Source: Arenibacter nanhaiticus
GTDB lineage: Bacteria > Bacteroidota > Bacteroidia > Flavobacteriales > Flavobacteriaceae
Direction of reading: 5' to 3'
Length of the DNA: 64,000 nt
Assembly: GCF_900141935.1 (NCBI RefSeq)
Contig: NZ_FQYX01000020.1
Location: forward strand, 1 to 64,000
The notes under the pieces: generated by a model
The model's database searches: none
Told to the model about the DNA's origin: nothing
What the model saw: the letters and a program-made list of their open reading frames with translations, nothing else
Translations under genes and position numbers: made by a program
In this document: positions 50,833 through 61,235 of the stretch, in pieces
How positions within the stretch are numbered: position 1 is the stretch's first letter
How the letters are laid out: each line of letters opens with the position of its first letter

Positions 50833-51753
50833 ATGAGAAGCCTCTTTTTTATTTTCTTCGTTTGTTTTTTGTTTTTATGTCCTTTGTGGGCACAGAAAGC
50901 TTTGCCTCTACGTCTTGATGAGGCTGACTTAAAACCCTTAAGGAGTTTAGAACACACCCTTTTGCAAAGGAATTTAGAGAAGGAACTCATGGCCAATGCC
51001 CGTTGGAAATATCTCATGAACCAAAAGAAAATGGCTGTCGGGATTGTAGATTTAAGAAATCCTCAACAGGCAAAATTTGCCAGTATCAATGGGGCCCATA
51101 TGATGTATGCGGCAAGTTTGCCCAAAATAGCAATATTATTAAGCTCAATGGATGCCATAGAAAAAGGAGAGTTGCAAGAAACTGACGAAATTAAACGAGA
51201 CATGCGCTTAATGATCAGTAAATCTAACAACCAGGCTTCTACAAGAATGATAGACCGATTAGGATATGATAAAATAGCGTCGGTAATGACCGACCCTCAA
51301 TACAAATTTTACGATAAAAGTCGCGGGGGCGGTCTTTGGGTAGGAAAACGCTATGGAGGAGGAGGGGACACCAATAGGGAACCCTTGAAAAACTTATCGC
51401 ACGCTGCTACTGTGAATCAGGTTTGTAGGTATTATTATATGTTGGTGAACGGAAAATTAGTAAATAACCAACGCTCCAAACAAATGCTCGACATTATGGG
51501 GGAACCAGAACTACACCATAAATTTGTAAATACACTAGACCAAATTGCACCCACGGCAAAATTGTTCCGGAAATCGGGCTCTTGGAAAAACTTCCATTCG
51601 GACTCAGTTTTAGTCTGGGGAAAAAATCCTTCTAGACGTTATATTCTAGTAGCATTGGTCGATGATCCCAATGGGGACGAAATTATTAGGAGCCTAGTAA
51701 GGCCTATAGAAAAAGTTTTAAAGAATACCGTAAATACAGTAGCCTTAAATTAA
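50833..51753 (+). CDS. Exported class A beta-lactamase-like serine hydrolase, copy 1
   Basis: A 306-residue exported protein with a strongly hydrophobic signal peptide (about residues 1-21, ending L-W-A-Q). The serine beta-lactamase/penicillin-binding fold is shown by S-L-P-K at 95-98, S-N-N at 131-133 and K-S-G at 247-249, so the S-x-x-K, S-x-N and K-T-G-type triad is complete. The omega-loop Glu of true class A lactamases is not obvious. It may be a peptidase or amidase acting on wall or glycopeptide material. It sits before the nucleotide-transporter-like gene, and a second such hydrolase lies beyond that gene. Confidence 0.85.
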   Translation: MRSLFFIFFVCFLFLCPLWAQKALPLRLDEADLKPLRSLEHTLLQRNLEKELMANARWKYLMNQKKMAVGIVDLRNPQQAKFASINGAHMMYAASLPKIAILLSSMDAIEKGELQETDEIKRDMRLMISKSNNQASTRMIDRLGYDKIASVMTDPQYKFYDKSRGGGLWVGKRYGGGGDTNREPLKNLSHAATVNQVCRYYYMLVNGKLVNNQRSKQMLDIMGEPELHHKFVNTLDQIAPTAKLFRKSGSWKNFHSDSVLVWGKNPSRRYILVALVDDPNGDEIIRSLVRPIEKVLKNTVNTVALN

Positions 51754-51934
51754 GTCGACCTAATAAACACCTTAAGAATTTTCTTCTGGCTATATTGATT
51801 TTAGTCTCCTTGTAATCAATTATTTTCTTAAATTACCATATGATGAATTTTGTGGGATCGTGGTCCTTATGAGCAGGATCATATATAAGATTCTGTAGGA
51901 AACTTAATATAAAGAGCTAAGAACGTAACCATAG

Positions 51935-54760
51935 ATGCTAAGAACTGTACTGACAAGATTATTCGATATACGCGAGGGTGAGTACAAGGTGTCCTTATGG
52001 ATGCAGGCATATATTTTTATAATCATTGCCACCTTGCTTATTATTAAGCCAACTGTAAACGCATTGTTTCTTTCAGAATTAGGGGTAGAAAATTTGCCTT
52101 TTGCTTTTTTATGGGTGGCCTTAACAGCAGTGATAAGTTCTTATTTCTATTCTAAGGCGCTACGTAAATTCGCCCTTAATAAAATAATAGAAACCACTCT
52201 CATGGTTTCTATAGTGCTTCTTTTAGGGCTAGGGGTATTTTTACAATTGGGGGCACGCACCAATTGGGTGCTCTATTTCTTTTATGTTTGGGTGGCTATT
52301 TATGCCGTTTTATCGGCTTCCCAATTTTGGGTATTGGCCAATTTGGTGTTTAATATAAGGGAGGCCAAGAGATTGTTTGGATTTATTGGCTCTGGCGCAA
52401 TTTTGGGCGGTATTTTTGGAGGCTACCTCACTTCCTTGTTAGCACCAATCATAGGGGTCGAAAATGTCATCTTTGTAGCCGCTGGTTTATTGATGTTAAC
52501 ACTACCATTATTGCGAAATACTTGGCGTAATAGGGTAAAGAAACTCAATGATTTTAAGCAAAAAAAACGAAGTATATCCCCAGAGGAAAGGCCAATTGCC
52601 CTCATAAAAAAATCGAAACACCTTAGTTATCTGGCCGGAATAGTCGGAGTGAGCGTTTTGGTAGCCAAATTAGTCGACTACCTCTTTAGTGATTTTGCCT
52701 CTTCTGCTATTCCCGACCCCGATGATCTAACTTCCTTTTTTGCCTTTTGGTTTTCGACTTTCAACGTTTTATCCTTAGGGATTCAATTATTTTTCACCCA
52801 ACGGGTGGTTGGTGTTTTTGGGGTAGGCTTTTCCCTGGTCTTATTACCGCTTGGGATATTGATCAGTAGCAGTTTATTCTTTGTTTTCCCTGAGCTCGCT
52901 ATTGTCATTTTAATTAAAGCGATAGATGGCACCTTAAAACAGTCCATCAACAAAAGCGCCATAGAACTCTTATCGCTGCCATTGCCTTTTGAATTAAAGA
53001 ATAAAACGAAATCCTTTATCGATGTGGTAGTCGATAGCATAGCTACAGGTATAGCTGGTTTTATTTTGATTTTTGTGATCAAGGGCTTCGAGTTAAGTAC
53101 TACCTATATTGTTTCTATCATTCTTATACTAGTAGGAGTCTGGGTGTATTTTGTAAAGAAAGTGAGAAGCGAATATTTTAAAACATTCAGGGAAAACCTA
53201 ACATTAATGACCGATAAGAGCGGTCATAAAAAACTGCAAGTAAAACCTGTTTCTGTGATACAGGGAATGAAAACAGTTTTTGAAAGCGGCACCGAGACAC
53301 AAATATTGTTTATGCTTAAAAAGCTTCTCGAAATAAATGACAAACGATTTGAGTTAGAAGTGCAACAACTATTATCGCACCCAAGTGATAAGGTAAAAAC
53401 GGCAGCCATAAAGAACATGTATTTCTTAAATAGCAATACTATGGTTACTCATATACCAGCACTGTTAAAGTCTGAGGACGAGGAACTTGTTACTGAGACG
53501 CTTGCTTATTTATTATTGCATTCCAACAAAAATAGTGCTGTAGTTTTTGACAGCTATTTGTCAGATGAAAATATGCATATTTCCGATGCTGCCCTCTTGT
53601 GTTTAGCGCGTGAGGCTAGGGATAATTACTCCTTAAAACAACACTACAACTTAGAAGGACTCATTGAAAAGAAGATAAGTTATTTAGCAGCTCATCCCGA
53701 GGACGAATTTGGCTTACATATGCTGTTAAAGACCATTGGTGCAGCCAATTTACCTAAGTTCCATTCTTTTCTTATAAAGTACTTTGAGCATGCAGATGCG
53801 AAGGTTGTACGTATTGCCATTGAAGCTGCCGGCGCTACTTTAAATGGAATGTTGATACCCCATCTACTATCTTTTTTACCTCATAAAGGGTATCGGGAGA
53901 GCGCTATTTTAGCCCTGCATAACTATGGAAGGGAGCTGCTTCCCCAATTAAGGACAATGGTGGCAGACCGAAAAACAACGGAAGCCTATCATCAATATAT
54001 TCCCAAGGTCATGGAAATGTTCAATTCTCAAGAAGCAGTCCGGAATTTGTTCTTTTTGCTAGAAGATAAGGATTTAAACATGCGACTGGAGGCCCTGCGT
54101 TCCCTGAATAATTTGAAGCGAAATACGCCAAGGTTAAAATTTAATAAATTTAAAGTGGTAGCGATTATTCTGGAAGAATGTAATATGTACCATCAAACTT
54201 TATCCGCTATGCATGCACAAATTATTATTGCTTACCGAAACAGGAAAAAGTCAAAAATACAGGTGAGTGCCGAGGAATATGATGCCAGATCTACTTTGTT
54301 AGACTTGTTGGAAAGGCGGTTAGATTTGGGTCTTGAACGAATTTTTAAACTATTGGGGTTAAAGTATCAACAAGGCGATGTTGAAATAGCCTATTCGGGT
54401 CTCCTTAGCGAACGGCAAGAAGCCCAGGCCAATGCCATAGAGTTTTTGGACAACCTTCTTACTGGAAATCTTAAGCGAACCCTATTGCCCATTGTCGAGA
54501 GTACTATTTTAGACGTTACTACCGATGAAGGGATACAGAAAATTAAGCATAAGATTCCATCAGAATTGGACTGTTTCCAAATGTTGATGGAGGCGCATGA
54601 TTTAAAATTAAAATTAGCTGTTTTATATCTTATTAAAGTACAAAAGGACATTCGCTACCTTCCCCTTCTTGAAAAATTAAAGGATAGTGAGGAAGTTAAA
54701 ATACGAACTTTTGCCCAAGAGGCTTTGTTGGCGTTGGGGAATGTCGCTAGCCCTTCTTAA
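51935..54760 (+). CDS. TLC/NTT-type nucleotide transporter fused to HEAT-repeat tail
   Basis: A 941-residue inner-membrane protein. Residues 20-410 hold about 12 hydrophobic segments with two marks of the ATP/ADP translocase (TLC, Npt/NTT) family: FWVLANLVFNIREAKRLFGF at 131-150 and the INKSAIELLSLPLPFELKNK segment near 338-357, followed by IDVVVDSIATGIAG. From about 440 to 935 the protein is soluble and alpha-helical, with HEAT-like repeats (for example DKVKTAAIKNMYFL, AKVVRIAIEAAGATL, EVKIRTFAQEALLALG). The family exchanges nucleotides across membranes in plastids and intracellular bacteria; substrate and direction here are unknown. The gene end overlaps the convergent hydrolase gene by 14 bases. 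Confidence 0.85.
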   Translation: MLRTVLTRLFDIREGEYKVSLWMQAYIFIIIATLLIIKPTVNALFLSELGVENLPFAFLWVALTAVISSYFYSKALRKFALNKIIETTLMVSIVLLLGLGVFLQLGARTNWVLYFFYVWVAIYAVLSASQFWVLANLVFNIREAKRLFGFIGSGAILGGIFGGYLTSLLAPIIGVENVIFVAAGLLMLTLPLLRNTWRNRVKKLNDFKQKKRSISPEERPIALIKKSKHLSYLAGIVGVSVLVAKLVDYLFSDFASSAIPDPDDLTSFFAFWFSTFNVLSLGIQLFFTQRVVGVFGVGFSLVLLPLGILISSSLFFVFPELAIVILIKAIDGTLKQSINKSAIELLSLPLPFELKNKTKSFIDVVVDSIATGIAGFILIFVIKGFELSTTYIVSIILILVGVWVYFVKKVRSEYFKTFRENLTLMTDKSGHKKLQVKPVSVIQGMKTVFESGTETQILFMLKKLLEINDKRFELEVQQLLSHPSDKVKTAAIKNMYFLNSNTMVTHIPALLKSEDEELVTETLAYLLLHSNKNSAVVFDSYLSDENMHISDAALLCLAREARDNYSLKQHYNLEGLIEKKISYLAAHPEDEFGLHMLLKTIGAANLPKFHSFLIKYFEHADAKVVRIAIEAAGATLNGMLIPHLLSFLPHKGYRESAILALHNYGRELLPQLRTMVADRKTTEAYHQYIPKVMEMFNSQEAVRNLFFLLEDKDLNMRLEALRSLNNLKRNTPRLKFNKFKVVAIILEECNMYHQTLSAMHAQIIIAYRNRKKSKIQVSAEEYDARSTLLDLLERRLDLGLERIFKLLGLKYQQGDVEIAYSGLLSERQEAQANAIEFLDNLLTGNLKRTLLPIVESTILDVTTDEGIQKIKHKIPSELDCFQMLMEAHDLKLKLAVLYLIKVQKDIRYLPLLEKLKDSEEVKIRTFAQEALLALGNVASPS

Positions 54761-56009
54761 CAATTTTATCAATATTGGTCGCTAGGGTCATATGGTCAGT
54801 AGCCGAATTTTTCCGTAGTACATTGGTCATTAAGACCACAAAATAGGTACAGTTGTTAGGATGTTCTATAATAGCTACGGAATTCATAAAGTTGCTTATG
54901 TTCCCCATGTATTTACCGCAGGGCTCACCACTGGTTTTGTTGCATTGGTAGAGGCTTCCAGATTTAAAATATACGGCTGCCTCTTTTAGGGCGGGCGATT
55001 GAGCATATCTAATACGGCGATCTGTCATATACATAAGGCGTTTCATTTCCAAACTCGAATTTTGATCGACCACATTGCCTTGTTCTAATTTGATCAAAAA
55101 CTTCATTATACCTATAGGGCTACCAATACTACCTCCTTTATCGCCTACATAGGTATTGGCTCCTTTGGTGAAAAAACTTCCCAAACGCCATTCGTCCGTA
55201 GTAATCCCTAATTTTCGTAGCGGTTGGTTTACCACACTGTTTCCTAAATCTGTCAGTTCTTTTCTCGGGGTAGTTGCAAAATAGGAATCTGCCTGTTCTT
55301 GGGTCAAGTTGGGGTAGTCCTTGCCAAAAGCGGCCATAAGCATTGCTTCGCGCCATACGATACTGGCAGCGCCGTTATTGCTTACCGATAACATATGGTC
55401 TGTCCATTCAAATAAGCTAAATACATCACTCGGAATCACTTGCCTTTTAATCAGTTTATGGGTTTCTACATTAAAAATAGGAATGGTATGCGAATCTGTC
55501 ATTCCCCATTGGCCAGCTTTTACAGATTTAGTACGCAATAACTCGAGTCGTTTTTCAAAGGATTCGGGGTATATATTTGCCAATTGGGTAAACAGGGCTG
55601 CTAATACGGCTATTTTTCCGACACTTCCAGGTTGGTAACCGGCGGTTTCATTTCGCTTGGCAAAACGAAGGTTCTCCGGATCCGAAATATCTAAAACGGC
55701 AATGGAATAGCTTTTGTCCAAGCCTTTAAAAAGCCCATTGATTTCGCTCTGAAAGTTGTCATTTACCTTAAAAAAGGAATTGGTGCTATCATTTTTTTTG
55801 GCAGTTAGGTTTAGGGAAATATCCATATAAGACTTCATGGCTCCCGGTGGAAGGGTGCTCGGTTCTTTGATAACGCCATTTTTTATAAGTTCTACTCGCA
55901 GTAGTCGTTTAATACCGGTACGGGTATACCCATCAATAGGATAGTAGGCGATGGTGGTAAAGGCCAAACAGAATAGTGCAGGTACTAGAAATTTTAAATG
56001 TTTTTTCAT
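54747..56009 (-). CDS. Exported class A beta-lactamase-like serine hydrolase, copy 2
   Basis: A 420-residue protein with an N-terminal signal or anchor (about residues 4-22). An extra domain of about 80 residues precedes the hydrolase. Active-site marks are complete: S-V-G-K at 129-132 in AGYQPGSVGKIAVLAAL, S-N-N at 210-212, and K-S-G at 349-351 in AVYFKSGSLYQCNKTSGEPC. Several cysteines near 355-387 suggest disulfides and so a periplasmic location. The start lies one base after the stop of the exported dikinase-like gene, implying an operon. The substrate is unknown; it is larger than lactamases. Confidence 0.86.
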   Translation of the reverse strand: MKKHLKFLVPALFCLAFTTIAYYPIDGYTRTGIKRLLRVELIKNGVIKEPSTLPPGAMKSYMDISLNLTAKKNDSTNSFFKVNDNFQSEINGLFKGLDKSYSIAVLDISDPENLRFAKRNETAGYQPGSVGKIAVLAALFTQLANIYPESFEKRLELLRTKSVKAGQWGMTDSHTIPIFNVETHKLIKRQVIPSDVFSLFEWTDHMLSVSNNGAASIVWREAMLMAAFGKDYPNLTQEQADSYFATTPRKELTDLGNSVVNQPLRKLGITTDEWRLGSFFTKGANTYVGDKGGSIGSPIGIMKFLIKLEQGNVVDQNSSLEMKRLMYMTDRRIRYAQSPALKEAAVYFKSGSLYQCNKTSGEPCGKYMGNISNFMNSVAIIEHPNNCTYFVVLMTNVLRKNSATDHMTLATNIDKIVKKG

Positions 56010-56010
56010 C

Positions 56011-58917
56011 CTATATTTTTTTAGAAAGCGGTATTCGCTTATTAATATCTATTTTCGGGGTTATGGATTCCAAATAATCGGAAGTCAGCGCTTTTTTATT
56101 TTCCACGAAGGGCCGTATTTGAAATAACCACAATTTGTTGTTTTGGAAACCTAGTTCCACATCATAGGCACCCTCATAATCCGAATGGGTTTCTTTAGGG
56201 AGGGTCTGGCGGATGGTTGTTGCAAATGCCTTAATATCTTGAATGTTTTTTGGATTAAGGATGAAGTTTTCAAATGTGGATGATTTTTTTTCGGTACCCC
56301 CCGTTGCCGGCAGTCTATTGTGGTACATATCCCTGGCAGGTGCCAATAATTGAATTTCGCCCGTATCTTTTATCAAATAGGTTTCTGCAGCCTGACCGTC
56401 TACGGCCCCTCCGGCACCACGGCTAAAGGCAATAGTTAAATCCTTGTCATTGCCAGAACTAATACCTTTGGTAATCAATACCCCTGAATAATCCACATCG
56501 ACACTTGGAATGACCAAAATGGAAGGGAAAACATTTTCTGGATTGAGCAGGTATTTTTGACGCCATTTAAAACTGCGTTCAGTATAGGGAGAGGCCCACA
56601 CATCTTTAATACCTGATATGATTTTTTCTTTGGAAATGACATTAAAAATAGTCAGGTTTAATCCGGCTCCTGTAAAATCTTTAAGGTCTTCCATATTGGT
56701 ATCACTTCTTAGGAATACCGGAATATTGCCAATATCCTTTCCTAGTACATTCTTAAAATCTGATTCTAATTGGGTTATGAATTGGGGCTGTAGGGGCATT
56801 TTTTTTATGGCCTCTCGCAACGTTTCTAGCTGTCTTAGCTGGTAGTTTTCTATTTCCATTTCAGGAATACCTTTGCTGTGCATACCCTCGGCTTCTTTGA
56901 ACATTTGGTTTAAAAACTGCCAATAGGTGATTTTTTGCCCAGGCATAGCTTGGTCCATATGGGCTCTAAAAATACCAAAAGGAATCACCAAGCCTTCGAC
57001 TACTTTGTCTGGGAACATTTTTTTTAATTGCCCTAGATTAGCAGCCTTTGGACCGCAAAGTTTTCCAGAGTCAGCTGCATCAACCGATCTGAGGTTAAGG
57101 ATTTTGGTATTCGATAATTCAATGTTCTGTGTGGGGACTTGAATTTTTTCTTCCTTGCGTTCCTTTTTAGCAAAGAGGTTTTTCTCTTCTTGGGTCATGT
57201 CCTTTTCCAATTTCATAATAACATTGCCTTTGTTGGAGACGGCATAAAAAACTCTTTCGCCATGGAATGTTTGAAGATTTAGCAAGTTGTCATCTGCTAG
57301 GGCCGTATTGGGAATCCCCAAGTTTCGTGCTAATAATTGGACGTGAGATACCATATTTCCCTCAGAAACCGTAGCAATTCCGGCAATGGGCTTTAAATCG
57401 GCCGGGGGGCGTTGAAACACGTATATTTTATTGGAAGCTACTTCAATATTGTCGGGTGACCCGCTTACGACAACTAGTTCCCCGAGGGCATATCCGGGGT
57501 TGAGACCTCTTATACCACTTTGGTTGGGAATGTTCAACACCTTATTGGTCAGGGCCGATTCCTGAGCGATAATATCGCCCAAGTCTCCAACGGCCTTGCC
57601 TAAATGCAGGGCAATGGAGCCCCTGATTTTATCATCGATAAACCCATTGGCCAAAGGTTCAAATTCAGCATACAAGTCAACCACTTCCTGATAATTGGCT
57701 TTTACCATGCTAGAACTCCATTCTACTTCCCTACGGGCATTTTCTAGAATGGCGGTCAGGTCTTCCAAGGTAGCCGTTTTTTGCGAAGAAGAAATAGTAC
57801 TTAAATTCAGTTGTTCCCATTCGGCAAGTTCAATATAGCCGGCGCCGGCATTGGCCATTCCCAAATAGCATATTTTAGTTAATAAATCGTTTAGGGTTTC
57901 TGGTTTCCAAAGGGGTGAATTTTTAAAAATGATTTCTTCCAACTTTAAGGAGGTATCCAAAAGTTGAAGTTGCGCCGCAGGATTTTCTTGGGTGAGTATT
58001 GCTTTCCTTATAGCCAATAAAAGTTCGGCTGTTGCAGGAACAAGAAAGGAAGGCTCCTTTTGGTCCTTGTTATTTGAAATATAGGTCTGGATGGTTTTTC
58101 CTATTTCGGCCTCTTTTACCAAAGAAGTCTTTTGTTGTAGGGAAGCGATATCTACAGGTTTGTAAAAACCGATCATGTTTTCTAACAAAATATCTATTTT
58201 GGCTTGGATGGCAGAAGATAGTTTATGGCCGTTGGTACGTTTAAAATCCTTTACTTTTTCAATGTCACTTGCCTCTGGTTGTCCATGTATCTTTATTCTG
58301 ATGGACATGAAATCTGGCGCCATATCAGAAATAACTTTAGAATCGCTGCGGATCAATTGCGCCACGTTATCGTCTCCACGGTGTGGAATGTCTTTTAAGG
58401 ATTGGCGGATGAGGTAAAAATTCTCTTTTAAATTTTTATTGTTCGAGAACAGCCATTTGTAAAAATTGACGCCCCAAGCTTCTTCATCTTCTGATTGTAT
58501 GGCCCCTCTGTAATATTGTCCTTTTTGAAGGATCCAACCATTGTCTACGCTTCTTAAATATTGATTGAGCTGGTATTGTTTTAAACGAGAATGGTTGTTT
58601 TCTGCATCCCAAAACTCCTCTTGTGCAGTATAGGCCAAAATTTGACCAAGATATATATGATGCTGTTTTCCGAGTTGGACAATAGTAGGTTTGTAAGTAG
58701 CGTGCTGTATACCCGGGCCTATGTTTTTTGGACATGGATCTTTTGGTGCTCTGGTACTACCATCGGTACAGAACCATCTTATTTCTTGATAAGGTCCTCT
58801 AATATCTTTTTTATAGGAAGCTATCTGTTCTTTAATTTGGTCGGCGTTTATTTTTTGCGCCATTCCTAGATGGGTAGCATAACATAATATGAAGGCGAAA
58901 ATAAGTTGTTTTTTCAT
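56011..58917 (-). CDS. Exported PEP-synthase/glucan-dikinase-like phosphotransfer protein
   Basis: A 968-residue protein with a signal peptide (MKKQLIFAFILCYATHLGMAQ). Residues 22-460 are a mostly helical region of unknown fold with an early Cys pair (C50, C62). A phosphohistidine swivelling domain follows (about 470-570) with VSHVQLLARNLGIPNTA, H525 in the position of the phosphorylated histidine. A C-terminal ATP-grasp domain (about 605-940) has CGPKAANLGQL near 621, RSDTNMEDLKDFTGAG at 737-752, and YDVELGF plus FQIRP at about 918-936. This order (His domain before ATP-binding domain) is that of plant glucan water dikinases, reversed relative to PEP synthase. No PEP-binding barrel is seen. 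The protein thus looks like an active dikinase secreted to the periplasm. It is co-transcribed with serine hydrolase copy 2. Confidence 0.85.
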   Translation of the reverse strand: MKKQLIFAFILCYATHLGMAQKINADQIKEQIASYKKDIRGPYQEIRWFCTDGSTRAPKDPCPKNIGPGIQHATYKPTIVQLGKQHHIYLGQILAYTAQEEFWDAENNHSRLKQYQLNQYLRSVDNGWILQKGQYYRGAIQSEDEEAWGVNFYKWLFSNNKNLKENFYLIRQSLKDIPHRGDDNVAQLIRSDSKVISDMAPDFMSIRIKIHGQPEASDIEKVKDFKRTNGHKLSSAIQAKIDILLENMIGFYKPVDIASLQQKTSLVKEAEIGKTIQTYISNNKDQKEPSFLVPATAELLLAIRKAILTQENPAAQLQLLDTSLKLEEIIFKNSPLWKPETLNDLLTKICYLGMANAGAGYIELAEWEQLNLSTISSSQKTATLEDLTAILENARREVEWSSSMVKANYQEVVDLYAEFEPLANGFIDDKIRGSIALHLGKAVGDLGDIIAQESALTNKVLNIPNQSGIRGLNPGYALGELVVVSGSPDNIEVASNKIYVFQRPPADLKPIAGIATVSEGNMVSHVQLLARNLGIPNTALADDNLLNLQTFHGERVFYAVSNKGNVIMKLEKDMTQEEKNLFAKKERKEEKIQVPTQNIELSNTKILNLRSVDAADSGKLCGPKAANLGQLKKMFPDKVVEGLVIPFGIFRAHMDQAMPGQKITYWQFLNQMFKEAEGMHSKGIPEMEIENYQLRQLETLREAIKKMPLQPQFITQLESDFKNVLGKDIGNIPVFLRSDTNMEDLKDFTGAGLNLTIFNVISKEKIISGIKDVWASPYTERSFKWRQKYLLNPENVFPSILVIPSVDVDYSGVLITKGISSGNDKDLTIAFSRGAGGAVDGQAAETYLIKDTGEIQLLAPARDMYHNRLPATGGTEKKSSTFENFILNPKNIQDIKAFATTIRQTLPKETHSDYEGAYDVELGFQNNKLWLFQIRPFVENKKALTSDYLESITPKIDINKRIPLSKKI

Positions 58918-60026: not shown

Positions 60027-61235
60027 ATGCAAAAATCGAAGAGTAAGGCTCAATTTGAATTTGTTGCCATTATGGCCTCTTTAATGTCTATAGTAGCATT
60101 GGCTATCGATGCCATATTGCCCGCCATGACCCATATCGGTCTTTCCGTAAACAGCTTGGACCCCACGGTGAACCAAATGTTAATCACTATGATATTTTTG
60201 GGATTGGGAGCAGGACAATTGGTTTTTGGACCATTGTCTGATAGTTTTGGAAGGAAACCCATTGTATATCTTGGGTTTTCTATATTTATTATCGGAAGTA
60301 TATTATGTGTCGTGGCCCCTTCTTTTGAATGGATGATCGCAGGGCGGGTATTACAGGGAATTGGATTATCGGCACCGAGGACTATTAGTATTTCTATGAT
60401 CAGGGACTCTTTTAAGGGTGATTATATGGCCAAGATTATGTCTTTTGTTACGGCCTTTTTTATTTTAGTTCCCATAGTAGCTCCTGCGATGGGGAAGTTT
60501 TTCTTGGACCATTACGGTTGGGAAGCTATTTTTTATGTACAGTTGTTTTTTACCCTTTTGGTGAGCCTTTGGTTTTGGAAACGACAGCCAGAAACCTTAA
60601 AAAAGGAGTATACCATACCTTTCTCTAAACACGTATTTATAGACGGGTTTAAGGAATTGTTCCGTCATAAGGAAACGGTGGCCTTTACCTTGGTTTCTGG
60701 TCTAATAACCGGCGCTTTCATGGTGTATTTAAGCACTGCCCAACAAATTTTTGAAATCCAATATAATTTGGCAGACGATTTTCCGTATATCTTTGCGGGA
60801 CTGGCTATTTCTGTAGGTTTATCTACCCTTTTAAACGGTACTTTGGTGGTACGTCTCGGGATGCGCAGACTGGTTTATATAGCGCTTTCCTTGTATTGCA
60901 GCACAGCTTTAATTTACATAGGGATGTTTTGGAACGCTCCCAATCCTAGTTTAGGGGTACTGATCACTTTTTTAGCGCTCCAATTTTTTACCCTTGGTTT
61001 TTTATTTGGGAATTTACGTGCTATTGCCATGGAGCCCATTGGGCATATTGCCGGAATAGGGGCGGCCATAACCGGTTTTATTTCGACTATGATGGCCATT
61101 CCGATAGCCACTTATATTGGTAGTTTTGTGCAGAACAGTACTTTGCCTTTATTTATCGGCTTTTCTGTCTGTGGGGTGATTTCTTTAGGGGTTTTTCTAA
61201 TGATAAAGGGTAAATCCTTGATAGCTACTGCCTAA
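60027..61235 (+). CDS. Multidrug efflux MFS transporter, Bcr/CflA type
   Basis: A 402-residue 12-helix drug:proton antiporter. The loop 2-3 motif GPLSDSFGRKPIVYLG is near residue 67, and the fourth/fifth helix region GRVLQGIGLSAPRTISISMIRDSF near 105 matches the drug-export signature of the Bcr/CflA branch. It likely expels small toxic compounds; the substrate is unknown. It has its own promoter just upstream. Structured repeat RNA copy C lies 49 bases beyond its stop. Confidence 0.9.
   Translation: MQKSKSKAQFEFVAIMASLMSIVALAIDAILPAMTHIGLSVNSLDPTVNQMLITMIFLGLGAGQLVFGPLSDSFGRKPIVYLGFSIFIIGSILCVVAPSFEWMIAGRVLQGIGLSAPRTISISMIRDSFKGDYMAKIMSFVTAFFILVPIVAPAMGKFFLDHYGWEAIFYVQLFFTLLVSLWFWKRQPETLKKEYTIPFSKHVFIDGFKELFRHKETVAFTLVSGLITGAFMVYLSTAQQIFEIQYNLADDFPYIFAGLAISVGLSTLLNGTLVVRLGMRRLVYIALSLYCSTALIYIGMFWNAPNPSLGVLITFLALQFFTLGFLFGNLRAIAMEPIGHIAGIGAAITGFISTMMAIPIATYIGSFVQNSTLPLFIGFSVCGVISLGVFLMIKGKSLIATA

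Follow-up and report, generated by a model that had tools for sequence, protein, structure and literature searches.

The stretch of DNA analyzed here (the window) comprises 64,000 nucleotides of contig NZ_FQYX01000020.1 of Arenibacter nanhaiticus, and carries four genes that are co-inherited in the window's family with very few exceptions and that almost certainly work together. They encode a dikinase-like protein that is very probably exported (DIK), two serine hydrolases of the beta-lactamase superfamily (H1 and H2), and a membrane transporter with the NTT fold and a tail of HEAT repeats (TLC). ATP phosphotransfer is mostly seen as a cytoplasmic process, ATP being scarce outside, and a deeply conserved module around an exported dikinase suggests that some Bacteroidota carry out such phosphotransfer in the envelope. 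The component families and the class of reaction are known; the gene set is undescribed in the open-access literature that we searched, and within that literature the four-gene system is new. If our explanation of the module is true, it would be, to our knowledge, the first dikinase pathway committed as a whole to the cell envelope. With four genes, intact active sites, cultured hosts, and a simple pattern of presence and absence, the module is a precise handle on such chemistry.

Joint inheritance and conservation of the gene set

In the window's family, sampled by one genome from each of 149 genera, DIK and TLC (both full-length, E ≤1e-60) and H2 (E ≤1e-20) share exactly one set of 28 genomes. 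H1 is found in the same 28 and in one more (G263), a fragmented assembly (~260 contigs, 90% complete) where it lies at a contig end whose last bases encode the start of TLC. The random-draw figure for one such coincidence of presence is 6e-31, a value that the relatedness of the genomes makes too small. The pattern of presence is patchy across the family, and it also survives scattering of the genes: TLC lies 2 Mb from the other three in G226, H1 is ~1 Mb or more away in G260, the two pairs sit deep inside separate contigs in G261, and the four genes are at four places in G425. Because these four genomes are complete for the set though its genes are unlinked, joint presence is not a matter of mere proximity. 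Beyond the family, full-length DIK and TLC occur in the same three genomes of a class sample of 119 (the window's genome and two from other families), and in a phylum sample of 345 genomes DIK was found in 11, all of which have H1 and H2. A close TLC (at least 770 bits) is present in nine of these 11 and in no other genome of the 345.

Scanning public genomes with three DIK queries confirmed 153 relatives, and the best 80 of the 153 were retained as loci, the nearest being Arenibacter sp. 6A1 (95% identity in DIK). An earlier interpretation made from the letters of the window alone (the sequence-only reading) had treated the four genes as one system, a view that would fail if the families were neighbors in this strain only. 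They recur well beyond it, with the full set in 28 of the 149 family genomes and at 60 of the 80 loci, and order and orientation are identical at all 60. H2 comes after DIK at 79 of the 80 loci, the remaining contig stopping within DIK, and the spacing between the two is at most 6 bp in 61 of 81 pairs (the 80-locus scan plus L033 and L034). Named hosts among the scan matches are mostly Flavobacteriaceae and include cultured strains; many belong to marine genera, and Dokdonia, Formosa, and Polaribacter are represented besides Arenibacter.

We counted neighbors at 63 loci (50 from a thinned set and 13 from other samples), with a minimum frame size of 100 aa and a match over 60% of the frame, thresholds that small genes escape. 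The four module families are found at 63, 61, 51, and 48 of these loci. No fifth partner emerged from these frames; the next commonest neighbor family reaches only 11 of the 63 loci, and the unit, as seen in frames of at least 100 aa, is therefore four genes. Insertions within the set (OmpA-like, TerC-like, PBP1A-like, esterase-like, and others, all named by eye) are each limited to one to three loci. At the Maribacter arenosus locus (L051:15775-18141), a frame inside the set resembles, by eye, a bifunctional penicillin-binding protein.

Layout of the locus

In the window, four open reading frames lie side by side at the positions that the sequence-only reading had given them, and Pfam confirmed their families, the swivel domain of DIK being placed by a structural model. 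They form two convergent pairs, with H1-TLC on the forward strand facing DIK-H2 on the reverse strand. DIK and H2 are 1 bp apart and H1 and TLC 181 bp apart, and the 3' ends of H2 and TLC overlap by 14 bp. This convergent arrangement of two pairs rules out a single four-gene operon. One variant (G318) has TLC oriented the same way as DIK-H2. The features are as follows.

50833..51753, + strand: H1, predicted exported serine hydrolase of the beta-lactamase superfamily, PF13354, 306 aa (open reading frame, Pfam)
51115..51117, + strand: H1 active-site serine 95 (alignment)
51935..54760, + strand: TLC, NTT-fold membrane transporter with HEAT-repeat tail, 941 aa (open reading frame, Pfam, model)
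51935..53212, + strand: TLC membrane domain, residues 1-426 (model helices; residues 1-422 align with AtNTT1)
53252..54757, + strand: TLC HEAT-like helical tail, approximately residues 440-941 (Pfam HEAT_2/HEAT, model)
52106..52108, + strand: TLC F58, at the AtNTT1 K155 column (ADP binding), lysine lost (alignment)
52295..52297, + strand: TLC A121, at the AtNTT1 E245 column, acid lost (alignment)
52667..52669, + strand: TLC K245, the invariant lysine of module TLCs (alignment)
52676..52678, + strand: TLC D248, at the AtNTT1 E385 column, acid kept (alignment)
53045..53047, + strand: TLC T371, at the AtNTT1 K527 column (ATP binding), lysine lost (alignment)
54747..56009, − strand: H2, second PF13354 serine hydrolase, hydrophobic N-terminus, 420 aa (open reading frame, Pfam)
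55623..55625, − strand: H2 active-site serine 129 (alignment)
56011..58917, − strand: DIK, very probably exported dikinase-like protein, 968 aa (open reading frame, Pfam, model)
58858..58917, − strand: DIK signal peptide, residues 1-20, predicted cleavage before Q21 (alignment, motif, Q-rule)
57550..58857, − strand: DIK helical N-terminal region, residues 21-456, with invariant C50 and C62 (model, alignment)
57202..57549, − strand: DIK phosphohistidine swivel domain, residues 457-572 (structure match 5fbu)
57343..57345, − strand: DIK swivel histidine 525 (alignment)
56095..57114, − strand: DIK ATP-grasp domain, residues 602-941 (structure match 5hv1, alignment)

A very probably exported dikinase-like protein

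Export of DIK was judged by the Q-rule described for Bacteroidetes, in which a Gln follows the signal peptidase I cleavage site (as described in part of PMC5837995). We searched with a regular expression rather than a trained predictor; position −3 could be Phe or any small or aliphatic residue, and position −1 had to be small. In 80 of 82 DIK proteins, a hydrophobic stretch is followed by a signal-peptidase-like motif and then Gln; the other two have no Gln motif, and the Q21 column is Q in 79 of the 82 when aligned. Three rows fail the rule of positive charge ahead of the hydrophobic stretch; some of the failing rows of DIK, and of H1 below, probably reflect wrong start codons. The motif makes export of DIK very probable, as the sequence-only reading had it, and the residues C50 and C62, present in 82/82, are conserved as a disulfide would be.

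The AlphaFold2 model of DIK (mean pLDDT 83) places a helical N-terminal region, a swivel domain, and an ATP-grasp domain in that order. Pfam reports PPDK_N over residues 620-944 and leaves the swivel unreported. By structure, the swivel (residues 457-572) matches rifampin phosphotransferase 5fbu (Z 10.7, 2.9 Å, 102 residues), and the ATP-grasp domain (residues 602-941), 29 residues further on, matches rifampin phosphotransferase 5hv1 (Z 21.4, 3.4 Å, 310 residues) and 2ols (Z 21.0). H525 of the swivel is invariant (82/82), as are K624, R737, E743, E921, and Q933 (82/82), which we take to be the K, R, E, and Q motif positions of the ATP-grasp active site. With both sites intact, DIK looks active, and it is likely that it forms a phosphohistidine from a nucleotide.

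Rifampin phosphotransferase, PEP synthase, and pyruvate phosphate dikinase share the ATP-grasp domain and the swivel with its invariant histidine, whereas DIK differs from all three by its export and its helical N-terminal region. DIK was rejected as a rifampin phosphotransferase proper, in which the order is ATP-grasp, rifampin-binding domain, swivel; the ATP-grasp domain of that enzyme aligns at residues 1-315 and its swivel at 761-867, and the order is reversed in DIK. The glucan water dikinase of plants has the same order as DIK, with the ATP-grasp domain at the C-terminus behind the swivel; DIK differs in being an exported bacterial protein, and the Pfam scan reported no carbohydrate-binding domain in it. 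The products of rifampin phosphotransferase include phospho-rifampin, AMP, and Pi (as given in part of PMC4844700), and by analogy we infer that DIK may perform chemistry of this type on another acceptor.

Two serine hydrolases

Both H1 and H2 belong to Pfam PF13354 (Beta-lactamase2) and have the SxxK, SxN, and KSG motifs of its serine hydrolases. The motifs are S95xxK98, S131xN133, and K247SG in H1 (64/64 aligned), and S129xxK132, S210xN212, and K349SG in H2 (81/81 aligned). A stretch of H1 at residues 183-187 is EPxxN-like (column 183 is E in 55 and D in 9 of 64, column 187 is N in 37 of 64), and we take it to resemble the omega loop of class A beta-lactamases. Most H1 proteins carry predicted export signals, the Q-rule motif being found in 53 of 63; ten rows have no Gln motif, and five fail the positive-charge rule or the hydrophobicity limit. 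H2 has a hydrophobic N-terminus in 81/81 and the Q-rule motif in just one of the 81, and may be anchored or otherwise cleaved. Three Lutibacter loci have a tandem duplicate of H1 (L062:13509-15413, L080:17099-18985, and L092:17135-19038).

An NTT fold without the nucleotide-exchange residues

Pfam assigns TLC to PF03219 (49.8 bits against a cut-off of 21, residues 109-414) and to HEAT. The best fold match of its model (pLDDT 82) is AtNTT1 (Z 38.9, 2.6 Å, 412 residues, 20% identity), with Chlamydia NTT1 at Z 35.4 and MFS proteins outside the family at Z ≤30. In AtNTT1, ATP/ADP exchange needs K155, E245, E385, and K527 (parts of PMC10654386 and PMC3306366), and mutants at K155, E245, and K527 are described as losing nucleotide binding or exchange, with K527R keeping some ATP import (part of PMC3306366).

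We placed these residues by hand on the chain of the structure, with a constant offset of 84, and carried them over via HMMER alignments. Among 64 module TLCs, the K155 column is Y in 50 and F in 14, in a part of the alignment to AtNTT1 (the N-terminal part) that is weak, though single-domain TLCs show K in that column. The E245 column is A in 51, S in 12, and G in one; the E385 column keeps an acid (D in 62, E in two); and the K527 column is T in 64/64. A like charge is missing from the first, second, and fourth of these columns in every one of the 64. In 11 further module TLCs the same three columns are neutral, the fourth being T in eight and G in three. Three single-domain TLCs aligned together with them serve as a positive control: their four columns read K, D, D, and K. 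Nine TLC-HEAT proteins outside the set, one of which is from G445, have F, S, D, and Q. Five NTT-HEAT proteins that are more distant still differ again at these sites, three showing R in the second column and one showing R in the fourth.

One position is particular to the module branch: K245, one turn from D248, is K in 64/64 module TLCs and K or R in 11/11 further ones, and its column is T or A in 9/9 TLC-HEAT proteins outside the set. TLC has the PF03219 domain and the fold of an NTT exchanger and lacks the full set of four charged residues. Its neutral K155, E245, and K527 columns, its HEAT tail, and its invariant K245 distinguish it from AtNTT1 and Chlamydia NTT1, with which it shares the fold. 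We read these changes as pointing to an altered anionic substrate, and they suggest that the label "ATP/ADP transporter" is wrong for this branch.

The architecture of module TLC, an NTT domain followed by HEAT repeats, is the same as that of the NTT-HEAT fusions of Major et al. 2017, which are widespread in bacteria and are left without a known function in the cited part of that survey (PMC5381601). The genomic partners mentioned in that part are cNBD proteins; module TLC stands instead in a fixed set with DIK, H1, and H2. The module supplies a testable genetic context for NTT-HEAT proteins, to which the survey, as cited, had given no function.

Within the locus, TLC also differs from its partners in descent. 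The TLC of the window is 44-46% identical to the TLCs of ten other Arenibacter loci (L041-L049 and L077), and DIK, H2, and H1 are 72-77% identical in the same comparison. The DIK tree unites all Arenibacter, whereas in the TLC tree the window's protein and its counterpart from strain 6A1 form one clade with Maribacter, Pricia, and Muricauda, and the ten other Arenibacter loci carry a different TLC lineage. Further mixed placements were seen, for example in Arcticiflavibacter (L115). Both are quick trees with long branches, and as they stand they indicate that TLC lineages are swapped within the slot while DIK follows the genus.

Proposed function of the module

We propose a four-protein envelope module of Bacteroidota. 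Outside the inner membrane, histidine 525 of DIK would receive phosphate from a nucleotide donor, ATP or another. The swivel would then pass this phosphate on to an acceptor bound in the helical N-terminal region, and AMP and phosphate would be released, as they are by PEP synthase and rifampin phosphotransferase. Judged by their joint inheritance with DIK, H1 and H2 would act on its target and hydrolyze an acyl or peptide bond in that envelope material, either ahead of phosphorylation or after it. The cargo of TLC would be another anion, most likely the product of phosphorylation or its precursor, moved by way of K245 and the acid at position 248 and not by ATP/ADP exchange. As a whole, and as stated, we regard this explanation as an even call. 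Its more specific form is tentative: a dedicated extracytoplasmic phosphotransfer system, made up of a periplasmic dikinase, two hydrolases of the penicillin-binding-protein fold, and an NTT relative that has moved past ATP/ADP exchange and carries a phosphorylated anion in or out, the target being the envelope or a scavenged molecule.

Several points weigh against this proposal. If TLC does not deliver it, periplasmic ATP would need another source. For residues 21-456 of DIK, where the acceptor would be held, no fold match was listed in the whole-model structure search, which barely tests that part. A profile search gave no solved relatives of H1 or H2, and single-sequence searches gave weak matches for H1 (E 0.06 or worse) and none for H2. 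The location of H2, which does not follow the Q-rule, is less sure.

Gaps in the set count in the same direction. DIK and H2 were not found in the G263 assembly, which is 90% complete. Of the 80 loci in the public scan, 20 do not have all four genes visible: two leave the contig inside the set (L074 and L113), five have <3.5 kb of DNA beyond DIK (L091, L093, L097, L103, and L118), and 13 with 10 kb beyond DIK, judged on that 10 kb and not on whole genomes, miss TLC and/or H1 there. In the phylum sample, two genomes from other classes (G429 and G445) have DIK, H1, and H2 without a close TLC. In both, DIK-H2 directly faces H1, with nothing of TLC between them. G429 has a TLC-family frame of 441 residues elsewhere (~35 bits), and G445 carries a distant TLC-HEAT, as well as a single-domain TLC on another contig. 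These two genomes hold the three genes without a close TLC, which makes DIK, H1, and H2 the apparent core of the module; TLC would be a near-constant partner that may not be essential to its chemistry. Nine genomes of the phylum sample, G445 among them, have more distant TLC-HEAT proteins (474-553 bits), and in the other eight no match to DIK, H1, or H2 was found; this distant branch therefore lives without the set.

Alternative explanations

The sequence-only reading had TLC supplying the ATP. On that account, TLC exports ATP (in exchange for ADP, or for AMP and phosphate) to feed periplasmic DIK, and H1 and H2 edit the phosphorylated envelope target. The fold of TLC, nearer to AtNTT1 and Chlamydia NTT1 than to other MFS proteins, is in its favor, and so is the identical presence of TLC and DIK in the family sample; the acid kept at the E385 column and the adjoining invariant K245 make an anionic substrate plausible. 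The residues of exchange speak against it, three of the four being neutral in all 75 module TLCs, at positions where AtNTT1 mutants are described as losing binding or exchange, K527R being partly active (part of PMC3306366). G429 and G445, moreover, have DIK without a close TLC.

Other apparently exported dikinase-like proteins point the same way. Weaker relatives of DIK (632-862 aa) with apparent signal peptides occur in seven class-sample genomes (L006-L010, L012, and L014). The TLC profile gave no full-length match in these seven genomes, just one short match (in G118), and exported dikinase-like proteins therefore need not have module TLC. Near the four relatives whose surroundings were examined (L035, L036, L037, and L039), H1, H2, and TLC are absent. 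We consider ATP supply by TLC unlikely. The conserved neighborhood and the probable export of DIK survive from the sequence-only reading, and the role that it gave to the transporter is not supported.

A second alternative holds that DIK is an ATP-consuming ligase or condensing enzyme of the prodigiosin type. In this view its product is an envelope molecule, trimmed by H1 and H2 and flipped by TLC. PigC and RedH, both with an ATP-grasp domain as in DIK, are among the NCBIfam matches below the cut-off, and no known acceptor domain was matched in DIK in the whole-model structure search. PEP-synthase models, however, outscore PigC on DIK, and the swivel histidine, the expected carrier of phosphate in our proposal, is invariant. 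We find a ligase improbable.

The presence of two beta-lactamase-like enzymes, an enzyme like rifampin phosphotransferase, and a possible efflux pump could also describe an antibiotic-resistance cassette. The ATP-grasp and swivel domains of DIK do match rifampin phosphotransferase best, and H1 and H2 are in the beta-lactamase superfamily, H1 with its EPxxN-like stretch. Against this, DIK is very probably exported and has a domain order unlike that of rifampin phosphotransferase, such cassettes do not typically consist of four chromosomal genes strictly co-inherited from genus to genus, and NCBIfam gave nothing above its cut-off for the four proteins. Among 72,556 plasmid records, none reaches 80% coverage of DIK; the best eight of 30 plasmid matches cover 33-36% of it at 23-26% identity. 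Resistance is a very improbable role for the set. On the same plasmid count we rejected a mobile or plasmid-borne cassette in general; padloc gave no match, which speaks against resistance as well, and a defence system was set aside on that result.

We give almost no credence to co-inheritance from shared ecology or descent with no joint biochemical role: the named matches, mostly Flavobacteriaceae and many of them from marine genera, are indeed related genomes, but presence is identical for three genes and near-identical for the fourth across 149 genera, the set is kept unlinked in G226, G260, G261, and G425, and the conflicting trees of TLC and DIK imply that parts have moved separately and yet stay together.

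Neighboring genes and TLC-HEAT proteins elsewhere

Upstream of DIK, the window has a Bcr/CflA-type MFS transporter gene (60027-61235). A similar gene is found at 16 of the 80 loci, and its nearness to DIK is probably ordinary synteny.

TLC-HEAT proteins also occur in other surroundings. In two module-free genomes (L177:4940-11830 and L185:2349-9206), a different gene set recurs, in which TLC-HEAT is followed by an Omp85-type frame, a frame of ~560 residues without a Pfam match, and a metallophosphatase-type frame, the Omp85 and metallophosphatase assignments having been made by Pfam in L177. At three further places (L176:4880-9256, L179:6224-15239, and L180:6653-11409), a TLC-HEAT protein and a single-domain TLC lie in one neighborhood, and the single-domain proteins keep the nucleotide-exchange residues.

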